A stretch of DNA of 64,000 nucleotides, taken from positions 330,001 through 394,000 of the forward strand of contig CM072343.1 of the NCBI GenBank assembly GCA_036874045.1, read 5' to 3'. The notes beneath the pieces were generated by a model, which had not been told where the DNA came from, searched no databases, and saw nothing but the letters and a program-made list of their open reading frames with translations. This document shows positions 26,050-44,055 of this stretch, in pieces. The position numbers were made by a program, and so were the translations under genes. Position 1 is the stretch's first letter; every line of letters begins with the position of its first letter. Source of the stretch: Cymodocea nodosa (Eukaryota; Streptophyta; Magnoliopsida; Alismatales; Cymodoceaceae).

Positions 26050-26102
26050 AGACCACGGAACCAAAATAAACACTACAGGCACCCACTGCCAACGGCACAG
26101 CC

Positions 26103-27702
26103 ATGGCGGCGACGGTGATCAACAGCGGCAAGGACGACGACAAGCCCTTCTTTCCTTTTGGCTTCCTAAGGTTGTCTCCAACCCAGCTCCTGCAAGTCTC
26201 CTTGCTTGCTTTGCTAGCCCTAGCCCTAGTTCTTCACACCTTCCCGCCTTCCTGCTACTTCACCCCACATGCGCTCCACTTGATCCTCTCCCACCGCAAA
26301 ACCCTCGTGCTTTCCCTCTCCTGGTGCATCCTCGTCTCCCTTGGCTCCTATGTCTCGGCTCTCCCTCGCCCCGTCTTCCTCCTCGACTACTCATGCTTCC
26401 GACCGTCCGAGGAACGCCGGTGCAGTGTGGAGGTGTGTGAGTACTTCCTCCGTCGAACTCGGTGCTTCTCCGCTAAGAGCGAGGAGTTCATGAGGGGAAT
26501 ATACAGTAAGTCCGGCCTCAGCGACGAAACCTACGCGCCGCCCTTCATCTTCGAAGGCGTCACCCAACCGAATCACTCGTCCGTCGTCCAAGAGGCGGAG
26601 GAGGGAATGTTCGGCGCCGTAGACTCCCTGCTGGCCAAGACCCAAGTCCCCGTGTCTCTCATCGATACCGTCGTCGTCAGCTCCGGCTCTTTCGCTCCCG
26701 CGCCCTCCCTCTCTGCCTTTCTCGTCAACCGATACGGTTTCCGGCCCTCCGTTAAGACGTACAATCTCGCCGGTATGGGGTGCGGGTCCGCTGCGTTGGC
26801 GATCGACACGTTGGGCAGGAGCTTGTCGCGCTCCAGGTGTGTCCGGTACGCGCTTCTCGTTACCACGGAGAGCATAAGCTCCAGCTGGTACTTCGGTGAC
26901 GATCGTTCCATGCTCGTCCCCAACTGCATCTTCCGCGTTGGCTGCGCCGCGTCGTTGCTGACCAACGACCCCTCTCGCCGCAAGCAGGCAAAGATGGAGC
27001 TCCTTCGCTCTCTTCGCACACACCGTGGCGCCGACGATGCGTCCTATCATGCCGCCTTTCAGGTGCGTGTATACGATTAATATAACATCGTTACATTAAT
27101 TTTAGTTACTTAACGTAGATAGTGAATATTTGACATTAACTAGTATGAACAACGTTATTTGTCAACAGGCGGAGGACGCGGAAGGCAACGTCGGCGTCTC
27201 GCTGAAGAAGGATCTCGTCCGCGTCGCCGGTGAAGGTCTCAAGGACCACATAAGAACGGTGGGCATTCACGTCCTCCCACTCTCCCAGCTCCTTCGCTAC
27301 GCCTACAATCGCGTCGCTTCGTGGCTGACCGGGGATACATCCCGGAAGCCGTTCGTGCCGGACTTCAGGACGGCGTTCGAGCACATCTGCATTCACACCG
27401 GAGGGAAGGCGGTGATCGAGTCGGTGGACAGGGCGTTGAGGTTGGGGGAGGACGCGACGGAAGCGGCCAGGATGACCTTGCACCGCTTCGGAAACACGTC
27501 GAGCAGCTTGGTTTTCTACGAGCTGGCCTACTTCGAGGCCAAGGGAAGGTTGAAGAAGGGGGACAGGATGTGGATGCTCGCCTTCGGCACTGGATTCAAG
27601 GTGTGCACTGTCGTCTGGAAGGTCCTCAGTGAGTCGTCAGGGATGGATCCGGATAATCCGTGGAGAGACTGCGTCCATCGGTATCCTCTTAAAGCATGGT
27701 AG
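26103..27702 (+). CDS. KCS: 3-Ketoacyl-CoA synthase (KCS3/12/19 group)
   Basis: Endoplasmic-reticulum condensing enzyme that adds malonyl-CoA to acyl-CoA, the first and chain-length-setting step of very-long-chain fatty acid elongation for waxes, cutin-associated lipids and sphingolipids. Exon 1 is 26103-27062 and exon 2 is 27169-27702, giving 497 residues. Two N-terminal membrane segments (about 28-50 and 62-85) precede the FAE1-type condensing domain. The catalytic triad is present: Cys227 in GMGC, His396 in CIHTGGKA and Asn429 in RFGNTSS. The motif RTHRGADDASYHAAFQ/AEDAEG at the intron matches KCS3/12/19-type proteins, where RTHHGAREESY is found. Around the catalytic Cys it reads GMGCGSAAL instead of the common GMGCSA, and FRVGCAASLL replaces FRSGGAAILL. 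Both are substitutions without length change, so the enzyme looks complete, with possible shifts in substrate choice. Confidence 0.96.
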
Positions 27703-37200: not shown

Positions 37201-40200
37201 ATTTTGAGCTCAAAAATATGTGAATCAAATTCCAATGTCAAAAAAATGCAAAGAAAAATCATATATTAGACCTAACCTGGAGGAGTGCTTCCAACTTGTT
37301 TTCAGAGGCAGAAAGTTTGATGAAATCATGCCTAGCAGAAGCAACTTTCTTGTGCAAAGATGATGTGCGCAAATGCTTGATTCCTTGAAATTCCTCGTCA
37401 ACCAACCTTTGCACAGCCTAAGGCACATCAAGAATAAAATGCAATCCTTAAAGAATAAGGTACTCGATAACTTCAGCATATCCTGTAAGCTAGAGCAATG
37501 TGTTTCAAAAGTAGTTCTTGTTTATCCAACACACTAAAAGTACACATGAAATGACACAGCACATTTCGAGGCATAGATTTGAAAGTTCAAGACAATTCAA
37601 TGAAGAGTGTGTGAAGTACATCGACTTGTGGTTCATGTAGTCAATGCTACTACACAAGCAGTGGATTGCCATACTTACACTTGCATTATTTGAAGCACAA
37701 CAAACACGTGAAATCCCATTTGCTAAATTTTCAAGTACGCATTTGCAAGTATAAGAGGAGCAACATGATAATTCTTGTTTTGGATACCAGAAATTAAATA
37801 CCATTTACAGCTCGACAAAAATTGATACTTGTGCCCTTTTGTTTGGTGTTAAAAATTTGACTCCTAAACAACAATTCTCCGTAATTCCATATGAAAGCAA
37901 TGAAAAAATTTACAGTATTAGAGGTGAAAGCTAGTGTAAAACCTTTGTCATAGTAGCAGCCACCAAAACAATTTGAAAACCAGGATCATTAGGTTTTGAT
38001 GCACGTGCTTTTAATGGACCAAGAAACTTGCGAATGTCTGGCCCAAAGCCATGGTCAAACATTGTATCAGCCTCATCTAGTACCTGTAATGGGTCATGTT
38101 GTAATGAATATCACAGATGATGTAGTAGTTGCTTTAGGCTAAAAGACTAGAAGAAGACTTTCTTTACTTGTAAGGCTTTGCATGTTCACAGGGAATGAGA
38201 GTGGAATTGTGATTTTGTGTGCTTCAATATTAAAAGAAAGTATTTGCAAGCACTAAGCACAGGTAGGACAGCAATTTGGGATTCTTATGAATGAATGGAG
38301 ATCCTACATTTGACTCTCTTTTTTCAATTTCATATTTGATGTAATTAACCTTTTTAAGACATGGTTAAACTTACCAAATACTTGATATCCCCAAAGACCA
38401 TGTTCCCAACTTCGATGTGTTGAAGAATTCTTCCTGGAGTACCAACTACCATGTCAGTTGGAACATTTAGTGAATCTTCCTGAGGTCTTGAACGACCACC
38501 TCCACTTATCATGGTAGATCGAAAACGAGCATGATGACTTACAGATTTGGCCACACGAAAGACCTGGAAAGAAATTTGTCAGTTAAGGCCCACAAAACAC
38601 TGATAAACTCTAAACATCAAGGTAGATAGTGAATTCCAATCCAAAATGAAAACAGAAGAAATACCTGTTCACAGAGCTCTCTTGTGGGACATAGCACAAC
38701 AGCACGAGGACGCCTAGGCTTCATTGACCTTCCATACAATGCCTCGTCATACCTTAGAAGCTATAGGATGGAAAACAAATGCTAGTAACACCAGTAATCA
38801 ATAATACAAAATTTCATCATTTTCAAATGAAATTGAGGTGAATCACAAATAAACTTGCATATTATATATAAATATCTTTTCAGCCACATCAAACTAAAGT
38901 TATTTCTAACTATTTATGTTCAAAATCGAATTAGTAAGGAATTAGACCAAAACAAGGATTTATCAAAGAAAATTCATAAGATAGATTTCTGCAAAAAGAG
39001 AAGTTCATGAAACTTCTAACTTCCTACAGGGTCATGAATTGAGTGTGATCTGCTAACTTCATATAAGCCATGTGAAATGAGTCTGATCTGCAGACTACAA
39101 CGCTTAAACAGAATGAGCCAAGTTGATGTACCTATTCACGTCAGTCCAACTAAATCCAGGTTTCTTGTTGATCCCAAGCTTATTCATGTGAATTTCCAAT
39201 CGCTCCAATTCTGTCCATTTTCCAGCAGACCTATAAACATCAGTAAGATGCAGGTAAGGCATGGCATCTCCAGGAATTAGTTGGGATAGCTGTATGGCTG
39301 CATGTTCAGCTATCTTAATGTTACAGTTCAATCTGCAACCACTCAGAACAGAGGTCCATATAAATGAGTCAGGTTCAAAAGGCATTAAATTGATCAAGTG
39401 CTCAGCTTTCTCAATGAACCCCTTACGGCATAAAAGACCAATGATACATGCATAATGGCTCAAATTTGGTTCAATGCCATCATTGCATTTCATTCTCTCA
39501 AAGTAATATTGTGCTTGTTCCAATAGACAATTATGCATACAAGCAGAAAGAACACCAAGATATGTGATGCTATCGGGTTTTATCCCTGTCTCATGCATTT
39601 TCTTAAACATGGCAATGCTCTCCATGCCAAATCCATTAACTCCATACCCATAAATCAATGTATTCCATGTAACTAGGTCATGCTCATCCATCTGGTCGAA
39701 TACCAACCTTGCCTTTGACATGCTTCCAGATTTAGCATACATGCTTATTAGTGAATTCATCACAGTGAAGCAACATTCAAACCCATACTTAATAGCAGCC
39801 CCATGCACGGATACTCCATATCTTTCTACAGAAAGGCTAGCAGAAGCACTAAGAATACAACCTATAGTTGATCCATTTGGGCTCATACCAGATAGGATCA
39901 TTCTATGAAACAATAGCAATGCCTTAGAATAAACCTTGTTCTGAGCAAAGCCAACAATTAAAGCATTCCATGCATTGACATCTCGCACACGTGACTCTTT
40001 AAAAATCCAATATGCTTGCTTTGTCTTCCCATGATGCATCAGACCAGAAATCATGACATTGCAAGTTACAGTATTTCTCATGGGCATCTTGAAGAATAGT
40101 TCCAAAGCATCATTAAGAGAACCCTCTTCCAGATGACCATAGATCATTGCTGTGTAAGCTGTGACATCTCTTTCAGGCATTGCATCAAACAATTTGCGAG

Positions 40201-42259
40201 CTTTTCCTACTTTTCCAATCTTAACGAAAGCCGAAATTAAGCCAGTATAAGCCTCTCTTGTGGGCTCTGGAAATAACATGAAAAATTTAAGGGCATCATC
40301 TATTCTGTTAAACCTTAAGTAGCCATTAATCATCAAATTCCATGAGATTGTATCCCACTCAGCCATCCTGTCAAACCATGTCCTTGCCTCATCAACCTTG
40401 TTATTATTTATATATTCAGCAATCAAAGAATTCCAGGAACTGACAAATTTACAATCCATCTTATTGAATTCTGATTTCGCTTCTAAACTACTCAGACACC
40501 TAAAGTACATTGTAACCAAGGCAGCTTCAATACCTGGATCAAGACTAAATCCTAATTTTATTACATATCCATGTAATTTTTTGCCTATTTTTGGGTTCTT
40601 CAATCCAGAACATGCACTGACTACCTTCATGATTATGGCAGCACTTGCCTTGGTCCCACTGCTTAGCATCTCCTTGAAAAACACTAGTGCCTCTTCATAT
40701 TGTCCATCTGAGACAAACCCACCAAGCATCACTGACCACGTTGCTGAGTTAGCTACAGGCATCAAGTTAAACAATTCCAAAGCACTCTTAATTTTCTTAA
40801 TCCCCACATATCCCTGAATCATTGCTGTCCAGGAAACCACATTTTTGCATGGCATACAATTGAAAATTTCACGTGCGTCTTCAACAAGTCCATTTAATAG
40901 GAAACCCGAAAGGAGAGCATTCCATGAGGCAACATTTCTGTGCTCAAAATCATTGAATACTTTCATCAAACAATCAGAGGTGCCACATTCAGAATACATA
41001 GTGATTAAAGAAGTGCCCACAAACTCATTTGTAGAGGAACCAGATTTTATTGACAGACTGTGAATCAATTCACCATATGTGAGACATCTGAACCTAGCAC
41101 ATGAGGACAAGACAATTGAAAATGATGTGTGGCTTGGCCTAACTCCCTGCTGATGCATCTCCGAGAAGTTGTGAAGCACTTGCTCGTGCTGACCATCATG
41201 AGAATAAGCAGACATCATGGAGTTCCACGACACAACATCTCTTTCAATCATTTTATCAAACAACTCCTTTGCAGAGACCAAGTCACCAGCCTTAGCAAAA
41301 CCAATGATGAGCCTATTCAAGTCTGAGATGTCCTGTTCGATAGCATTGACAAAGTAAGATGAACATGATTCAAACAGACTGACAATCGCGGACCCAGATG
41401 AAGTAGCAGGCAAACATTATCCAAAAATTGGTCGATTGCATTGCTAAAAGTAAATTAACCTTTTCTGTCGCCTGGAATTTAGTCTTCCTTATGAAGGGCA
41501 CAGTACCAACATAGCTACCACTTGTGCCCTCTCCCACTCCCTCAATATATTGTGTTCAATTTATTATTAAAAGTTATTATATCGCGGATAGCTACAATTC
41601 AATCAAAACTAACTGATTACACGGAAAAAATGAAAGCATGAATTCCAACAAAATGGAGAATTCAATCATTCTAAACTTTCTGTAGATATAAATCTATTTC
41701 ATAATAAAAACGTAAGGAACAAGGAACGCACCTGAACCAAAGGAAGCATGTAAGCCAAGGTCTTCCCAGACCCAGTGTGCGACCCCAGCACAACACTTTT
41801 TCTCTCCAGGACCGCCGGGACCCCAATACACTGTATCTCCGTGGGAACGGAAATCTCCATCTCCTTCAACGCCCCCATCACCTCCTCACTCAAACCCAGC
41901 TTCGAGAAGCTAGACGCCGCCACTCCTACCTTCTTCTTCCCCTTCTCCTCGCCACGGGCCACCTCGTTATTGGCCTTCCTCGGTGGAGATACATTGGGAT
42001 CAGAAGAGGAGGTAGCGTCCTTAAGGTGCCGCGATCGGATACGGTCCAGGAGCATCGAGTGGCGAAGGGGCTGGAGGGGGGTGTCAGCGACTGTGGTAGG
42101 GGAAGAAGCGGTGGCGAAGGTGGCGGAGAGGGAGAGAGGACGGAGGTAGTGGAGGGGGAGTTTGGCAGAGAAGAGGGAGCGGGAGAGGAGGACGGTGGAG
42201 GAGGGAGAGGAGAAGGAGAGGGAAAGGAGCGCTCTTCCTGTTCCTCCGGCGCCGGCCAT
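34235..42259 (-). CDS. RH39: DEAD-box ATP-dependent RNA helicase RH39, plastid
   Basis: RNA helicase; Arabidopsis RH39 is plastid-localised and needed for the hidden-break cleavage of chloroplast 23S rRNA. Nine exons: 42259-41732, 38760-38665, 38563-38375, 38083-37943, 37417-37277, 36811-36669, 36077-35948, 35824-35776 and 34701-34235. All joins are in phase, giving 627 residues (Arabidopsis protein about 620). Exon 1 encodes a Ser/Leu-rich transit peptide ([18 protein letters not shown]...), the Q motif ([14 protein letters not shown], then PTEIQ) and motif [10 protein letters not shown] (159-167). Then come [17 protein letters not shown] at 274-277, AAT in place of SAT (about 313), [18 protein letters not shown] and [10 protein letters not shown] from 461. 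A basic Ser/Lys/Thr-rich tail ends the protein. The first intron is 2971 bases and contains a complete PPR reading frame on the same strand. The gene diverges from the MRNIP-like gene 665 bases away. Confidence 0.97.
39104..41413 (-). CDS. PPR protein (PLS class, E-type ending) nested in RH39 intron 1
   Basis: Pentatricopeptide-repeat protein, a sequence-specific organelle RNA-binding family. The frame is uninterrupted for 769 codons to the TAA at 39104-39106. Repeats are visible throughout, e.g. [40 protein letters not shown] and [20 protein letters not shown]. The end has an E-type motif ([20 protein letters not shown] ... [13 protein letters not shown]) and no DYW deaminase. The start is a problem: the frame opens just after a TAA near 41417-41419, and the first in-frame ATG is codon 55 (41251), already inside the first repeat. 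So the protein either starts there, starts at a non-AUG codon, or gains its N-terminus by splicing. An acceptor-like ATCGAACAG ends at 41333 and is in phase with RH39 exon 1. The frame lies wholly inside RH39 intron 1 (41731-38761), same strand. Confidence 0.93.
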   Translation of the reverse strand: MPATSSGSAIVSLFESCSSYFVNAIEQDISDLNRLIIGFAKAGDLVSAKELFDKMIERDVVSWNSMMSAYSHDGQHEQVLHNFSEMHQQGVRPSHTSFSIVLSSCARFRCLTYGELIHSLSIKSGSSTNEFVGTSLITMYSECGTSDCLMKVFNDFEHRNVASWNALLSGFLLNGLVEDAREIFNCMPCKNVVSWTAMIQGYVGIKKIKSALELFNLMPVANSATWSVMLGGFVSDGQYEEALVFFKEMLSSGTKASAAIIMKVVSACSGLKNPKIGKKLHGYVIKLGFSLDPGIEAALVTMYFRCLSSLEAKSEFNKMDCKFVSSWNSLIAEYINNNKVDEARTWFDRMAEWDTISWNLMINGYLRFNRIDDALKFFMLFPEPTREAYTGLISAFVKIGKVGKARKLFDAMPERDVTAYTAMIYGHLEEGSLNDALELFFKMPMRNTVTCNVMISGLMHHGKTKQAYWIFKESRVRDVNAWNALIVGFAQNKVYSKALLLFHRMILSGMSPNGSTIGCILSASASLSVERYGVSVHGAAIKYGFECCFTVMNSLISMYAKSGSMSKARLVFDQMDEHDLVTWNTLIYGYGVNGFGMESIAMFKKMHETGIKPDSITYLGVLSACMHNCLLEQAQYYFERMKCNDGIEPNLSHYACIIGLLCRKGFIEKAEHLINLMPFEPDSFIWTSVLSGCRLNCNIKIAEHAAIQLSQLIPGDAMPYLHLTDVYRSAGKWTELERLEIHMNKLGINKKPGFSWTDVNRYINLAHSV

Positions 42260-42924: not shown

Positions 42925-44055
42925 ATGCTGAATTCGGGGTTCATGGCGGTGCAATGCGTTCAGTGCTCCACAATGCAGGTCTCAGATCCGATTTCTTTCT
43001 TCTTTCTCGATCTGAAATCCACTCTCTTCCACAAAGTGAGCATAGTATTTGGTAATGATGACGTTCGGAGTTGGAACAGGTGAAGCAACAGAAGAGAAGC
43101 AGCCGCAAGTGGACCTGCGTCATGTGTAACCAGAAGCAGTCGGTCACCCGTGTCTTCGCCTGTGGTCCCCAGGCAAAGGACCTCCGCCTCTTCGTCCAGG
43201 AGTTCAACGTCTCCAGGGGCTCCGCTCTCGAGTCCTGCTTTGAGGAGAAGCACCACGTCATGCAAGAAGAGGCGGAAGAGGAAGCATGTGATAGGAAGAG
43301 GACCGATTGGTCGGAGTATCTCGATCCCACCGCCACAAATGTCATCGGAGGAGAAGAAGAGGACGGGGATTATGATGGAGGTAAATCTGGGCATCTCGAA
43401 TGCCCTCCTTGCTCTCTGATTTGAAACCTCAACTTTCTTCCTGAATCGCCCCTTATGCGGTGCGTCTCTTGCTGTTATTTCAGACCTGGAGGTTGTGACG
43501 GAAATAATGCCCAACCAAATTTGCAAGGCATCATTCCCCAAACGCCCTCGTGGAGGCAAGAAACTGCAATGATTTTTGCCCAATCTTTCCATTCCCTCCC
43601 TCCTCCTGTTCTTTGACGACAAACTACTTTCGTTTCAAATATCTCCTACCTTCATTTGTACGGAGCAGGTGAGCCGGATTTCAGCACGAGAACATCCAGG
43701 AGATCATTCACAAAATGCCGCAGAAGAGGCAAGTAGTAATAGGAAATGCTTTGCATATTCGGCCAGAATTTTCTTTGTTACCAAGTGCTTGAAGTTCTGC
43801 TTTCTTCATGTTCTTGTAGAAATCAATGAACAAGAGAGGGCATGCACAACAGTGAAGAAAGCGAAGCCAACGAAGACGATGGAATCCAAGGGGGACAGGT
43901 ACTTGGAAGAAGAGATAGAAAATGTGTTGGGTGTAGATGGTTTTCTACCGGTGACGGACCACTCCATGTTGTGGGGTGGTAGTGATGCGAAGGAACGGCA
44001 CCAGCAGCTCAGAGATGTTAGAGTGGAAGAAGAGGTCCACCCAGATTTCATTTGA
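42925..44055 (+). CDS. MRNIP-like protein (MRN complex-interacting protein family)
   Basis: Animal MRNIP helps the MRE11-RAD50-NBS1 DNA-repair complex; the plant members are little studied. My model has five exons: 42925-42978, 43080-43380, 43484-43555, 43669-43728 and 43820-44055, giving 240 residues. The N-terminus is the family hallmark: VQCVQCSTMQ, then KWTCVMCNQKQSVTRVFA, a four-Cys zinc-type pattern, then KDLRLFVQEFN. The middle has RKRTDWSEYLDP and the C-terminus EEEVHPDFI, as in plant homologues. Introns 1 and 2 are GT-AG. Intron 4 needs a GC donor (AGAAGAG/GCAAGT at 43729) to keep the frame. Intron 3 could use a GC donor (GAG/GCAAGA at 43556) or a weak GT at 43550. ATG 42925 is chosen, though 42943 is possible. 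The gene converges with GUF1. Confidence 0.85.

Follow-up and report, generated by a model that had tools for sequence, protein, structure and literature searches.

In grasses, rps14 lies in an intron of sdh2 (sdhB), and its expression depends on a splice that joins sdh2 exon 1 to the nested gene, as passages of PMC1543663 report. The rps14 product uses the sdh2 targeting peptide, and the chimeric mRNA is described as fact in passages of both PMC1543663 and PMC2631504. The initial annotation of the locus treated here had cited rps14 nested in sdhB, with its shared presequence, as a precedent, and for grasses this arrangement is documented in the first of these papers. Introns inside coding exons are referred to as exitrons. 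RH39 of Arabidopsis acts in chloroplast 23S rRNA maturation, according to passages of PMC5442247. Among the matches listed from the open-licence PMC literature, covered as titles and beginnings of abstracts, neither a PPR gene nested in RH39 nor a PPR gene sharing the transit peptide of a host gene was found.

The Cymodocea nodosa locus described here resembles sdh2-rps14 in several respects. A gene for an organelle protein lies inside an intron of another such gene on the same strand, host exon 1 and a candidate acceptor of the nested gene are compatible in phase and give one open frame, and the nested PPR frame plainly lacks its own start and, judged by composition only, a targeting peptide. 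The two differ in origin, since rps14 came from the mitochondrion whereas the PPR passenger is nuclear and its host a chloroplast-type helicase, and also in that a chimeric mRNA has been described for sdh2-rps14 and is a prediction for RH39-PPR. The leading explanation, held tentatively and at somewhat less than even confidence, is that the RH39 gene uses the nested PPR gene as an alternative 3′-terminal exon.

The helicase gene and its nested PPR frame

The two genes occupy the following positions in the window, which is the whole 64,000-nucleotide stretch of DNA that was analysed:

42259-41732, minus strand: RH39-like exon 1, 528 nt or 176 codons, in phase 0 at its 3′ end
41731-38761, minus strand: RH39 intron 1, 2,971 nt, of the GT...AG type (GTGCGT ... 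CCTATAG)
41416-39104, minus strand: PPR frame from stop to stop, 770 codons without interruption
38760-34235, minus strand: RH39 exons 2-9 and their introns, completing a helicase of 627 residues

The name RH39 is that of the initial annotation and fits the plant family; it does not come from a database match. Its nine exons, when joined, give a single uninterrupted frame of 627 residues in which both the DEAD and the Helicase_C domains are present. Exon 1, whose phase-0 end had been read correctly in the initial annotation, encodes a Ser/Thr/Ala-rich, transit-peptide-like leader and, in residues 140-176, the beginning of the DEAD domain. Upstream of RH39 lies a divergent open frame at 43062-43424 on the plus strand, KWTCVMCNQKQSVTRVFACGPQAKDLRLFVQEFN, presumably that of an MRNIP-type protein, and the two genes may have a promoter region in common.

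The PPR frame sits within intron 1 on the strand of its host, its stop separated from exon 2 by 343 nt. Both genes appear usable, because the 770 codons of the one are uninterrupted and the frame of the other is intact. Pfam comparison matched the frame to PF13041 (8.8e-95) and, near the C-terminus, to the E_motif PF20431 (1.9e-10; 41.2 bits, with the cut-off at 27.3), with no DYW family among the matches, and a home-made repeat profile matched 16 repeats at scores above 3 bits. With its tandem repeats and C-terminal E motif, the product is an E-class PPR protein, like the E-class (PLS) proteins of plants. GC3 is 0.38 in the nested frame versus a mean of 0.49 in 43 other PPR frames. A structure prediction for residues 1-205, made without an alignment, reached a mean pLDDT of 47.1 and was too poor for use; the same model draws helices at residues 8-17 and 21-28.

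The genome of the species itself (374.6 Mb, 28 contigs) was the only plant genome searched for relatives. Among the matches listed, the closest other PPR showed 34% identity over 427 residues, and identity to the nested PPR was at most 46% for all others; RH39 exon 1 had six further matches, all partial and 30-40% identical. Since the matches of both are distant, no duplicate reveals an ancestral N-terminus. Scans of prokaryote genome and virus contig collections found no relatives, as expected for such collections.

A PPR frame without an ATG start or an evident targeting signal

Two ATG codons bear on where the PPR protein begins:

41417-41415, minus strand: out-of-frame ATG overlapping the stop that closes the PPR frame, a rival start
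41251-41249, minus strand: first in-frame ATG, within the first PPR repeat

Three statements of the initial annotation about this region held when checked: that no ATG precedes codon 55, that a stop closes the frame just above 41413, and that PPR repeat sequence lies upstream of the first ATG. The ATG at 41251 is codon 55 counted from TTG 41413 and codon 56 from 41416, the closing stop is a TAA at 41419-41417, and the ATG falls inside the first repeat. How unusual this is was assessed from 44 distinct open frames of at least 250 codons and at least six motifs, found by similarity in PPR loci of the genome, 40 fetched places among them, and constituting a sample of PPR genes. One of these frames extends beyond the locus that was fetched, and two or more seem to belong to another PPR type. 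A clear repeat was defined by a score above 8 bits with a repeat profile built from PPR loci of the same genome. The first ATG stood 24-206 residues ahead of the first clear repeat in 43 of the 44 frames; the nested frame alone differed, with its first ATG 24 residues after that repeat. The absence of a start is thus real and, among the frames surveyed, rare. The leaders were also scanned for an L-type PPR motif, which was dropped as evidence: the match in the nested leader (SLFESC) lies 19 residues ahead of the first clear repeat, and the element occurs in six other leaders, in four at 32 residues and in two at 64 and 132.

The composition of the N-terminus points in the same direction. Among residues 1-31 of the PPR frame, three are acidic and none is Arg or Lys, and the form starting at ATG 41251 has one basic and five acidic among its first 31, a net charge of −4. 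The 43 other PPR frames each carry at least one Arg or Lys in their first 31 residues, with net charges from −1 to +9, and in the RH39 leader two residues are basic and none is acidic (net +2). By composition only, which is not a targeting prediction, the PPR frame appears to encode no targeting-like N-terminus and RH39 exon 1 appears to encode one. As the PPR gene seems to lack a start and an address tag of its own, alternative splicing of the helicase gene may supply it with both.

A start at ATG 41251, or no protein at all, would be expected if the frame were a 5′-truncated copy that lacks a targeting signal and is in decay or works outside organelles. The 715 codons remaining from this first in-frame ATG are compatible with such a copy, as is the result that, among the matches listed, neither a near paralogue nor another RH39 exon 1 turned up to reveal what was lost. 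It is nevertheless an unlikely account, given that the first repeat would be split and the net charge of −4 falls outside the range of the other frames. All 770 codons, including the 55 ahead of the ATG, are free of stops, so that any decay would have to be recent. The PPR stop is not followed by the run of at least six A that would mark a retrocopy, and the direct repeats shared by the two flanks, sought as a target duplication, reach 9 nt at most, which is the chance level.

Candidate splice sites

Borrowing from RH39 would depend on the following sites:

41929-41928, minus strand: donor-like AAG/GTAGGA inside exon 1, phase 0, PWM score 5.59
41731-41730, minus strand: constitutive RH39 donor CAG/GTGCGT, PWM score 9.43, or 8.3 with this donor excluded from training
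41334-41333, minus strand: candidate acceptor AG, PWM score 4.77, with a branch-like CTTAC whose A lies at −23

The splice PWM was trained on 17 introns from two genes in the window, eight from RH39 and nine from a second, GUF1/LepA-like gene. Conserved peptides guided the manual assignment of these introns; another GUF1 junction was dropped, and for one training intron the lower-scoring pair was taken because it kept the conserved peptide.

The candidate acceptor does open the PPR frame in phase 0, as had been proposed, with the exon beginning at 41332 on the D of DISDLNR, and this position coincides with a PPR repeat boundary. It is the top-scoring AG between 41675 and 41238, and 4 of the 17 real acceptors score no better (leave-one-out range −3.6 to 9.7). 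AGs as good make up 6.7% of 3,744, and the branch-like motif is present in 13 of the 17 real introns too. An equal in-phase AG occurs in 13.6% of 3,505 overlapping 94-nt stretches from nine intron pieces, for which reason the acceptor alone proves nothing; among 2,030 stretches of PPR-coding sequence the share is 12.6%. Twelve AGs of intron 1 outscore it, which was counted against exon sharing: 41693 and 41679 upstream, eight within the PPR frame, 38988 and the true acceptor at 38760. The candidate acceptor is therefore middling, within the range of real acceptors and not beyond chance.

Among 113 one-intron models that give the PPR frame a start, the pair 41731/41332 came out on top with a score of 14.2, a value that includes the donor at its training-set score (9.43 rather than the left-out 8.3). 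The resulting fusion is one open frame of 918 residues. The second model, 41731/41290 (11.3), cuts into the first PPR repeat, and the third, 41929/41332, scored 10.4; models with an intronic ATG were rejected, as the best two reached only 6.9, with a leader of two residues, and 4.6.

The donor at 41929, absent from the initial annotation, ranks next to the constitutive donor within exon 1, and 5.3% of GTs are as good. Splicing it to 41332 would yield a 110-residue leader without helicase sequence, whereas the fusion through the normal donor would retain 37 residues of a cut helicase domain, a point counted against exon sharing. Leaders of 110 or 176 residues both fall inside the 24-206 range of the other PPR frames. 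The position of this donor, inside a coding exon and in phase, is reminiscent of exitrons, from which the arrangement would differ in that only the donor is inside the exon and the acceptor lies in the next intron.

The start might instead be supplied by some other, unseen exon beyond the scope of the one-intron models, located in the intron, further upstream or reached through several small introns. A donor-like AAG/GTTAAT at 41459 (score 6.24; 3.3% of GTs as good) closes an open stretch in frame +1 and is in phase 0 with 41332, which would suit such an exon. That stretch, however, has no in-frame ATG before 41459 and its in-phase acceptors are poor, the best, at 41471 with a score of 3.09, giving an exon of 12 nt (read by hand), and we consider this source of the start improbable.

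Sequence just upstream of the acceptor

Exon sharing through 41334-41333 would leave out a short open segment:

41416-41333, minus strand: 28 open codons above the acceptor, without Arg or Lys, of coding-like composition and with no clear frame signal

Its 84 nt have a GC content of 0.43, versus 0.26-0.39 in the last 84 nt of 15 introns, a set that includes the true end of intron 1. Of 978 overlapping open intron windows, 1.1% reach its coding score of 9.9 bits, which is no lower than that of 44% of the 43 other PPR leaders. A stricter, frame-difference test was neutral, with 57% of 954 open intron windows as high. The noncoding set behind the composition score contained intron 1 from 41731 to 41420, the set for the frame-difference test was without that piece, and windows overlap heavily in both tests. 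The coding-like composition lowers confidence in exon sharing, but does no more than that.

These observations bear most directly on the possibility that the PPR gene possesses a leader of its own and an intronic promoter, or did so until recently, with residues 1-28 or more being coding. The start may then be hidden by a one-base shift, or translation may begin at a near-cognate codon, TTG 41413 or CTG 41377. Because the 84 nt are coding-like and ATG 41417 stands at the stop, a single-base error or mutation is conceivable, as is initiation at a non-AUG codon. ATG 41417 shares bases with the closing stop and lies in another frame, from which the PPR frame could have been parted by a mistake in the assembly, by allelic variation or by a mutation of recent date. 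The frame of ATG 41417 is itself open from 41555 to 41373 on the minus strand, 61 codons in intron 1 of which part is coding-like. Against this reading stand the neutral result of the frame-specific test and the lack of Arg and Lys in the first 31 residues, a feature of none of the 43 other frames; moreover, an out-of-frame ATG near a stop is probably not rare by chance. Taken jointly, the variants of an own leader are a lesser and fairly unlikely possibility. Should a one-base shift be the answer, the locus would represent an ordinary annotation or assembly problem.

RH39 exon 1 as a possible shared leader

Exon sharing is favoured on account of exclusion and layout, and not of acceptor strength. 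Transcription would start from the RH39 promoter, and most transcripts would join exon 1 to exon 2 and encode the helicase. In some transcripts, exon 1 would be joined to the acceptor at 41334-41333 instead, through either the normal donor at 41731, taking the whole of exon 1, or the in-phase donor at 41929, taking the leader alone, and the transcript would end in the 343-nt gap that follows the PPR stop and precedes RH39 exon 2. Translated from the RH39 ATG, the chimeric mRNA would yield a protein with the RH39 leader ahead of the PPR tract, which would begin with its first repeat. This leader would direct the PPR protein to the organelle of RH39, which is the chloroplast in Arabidopsis (passages of PMC5442247). 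We infer the splicing, polyadenylation, import and function of the PPR fusion.

The central proposal of the initial annotation, that the PPR protein borrows its N-terminus from exon 1, was upheld in part. The start is missing, the frame has by composition no targeting-like N-terminus and the proposed junction leads the 113 models; on the other side, the acceptor is middling and not beyond chance, the 84 nt above it are coding-like, and rival explanations remain. A more specific version of exon sharing, in which 41929 is a dedicated donor that trims the helicase part while the PPR exon shares the RH39 promoter and transit peptide, is a slim prospect, and equally slim is the attached idea that a single choice of splice site governs how much helicase is made relative to an RNA-processing factor in the same organelle.

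If exon sharing proves true, transit-peptide sharing by alternative splicing would extend from rps14 to a large family of organelle RNA-binding proteins in plants, and the expression of two organelle RNA-metabolism factors would be tied to one splice choice. Gene annotation would then miss the real N-terminus of such genes.

Elsewhere in the window, two open frames at 26070-27702 on the plus strand, broken at about 27080-27106 by either a short intron or a break in the frame, belong to what is presumably a 3-ketoacyl-CoA-synthase-like gene.
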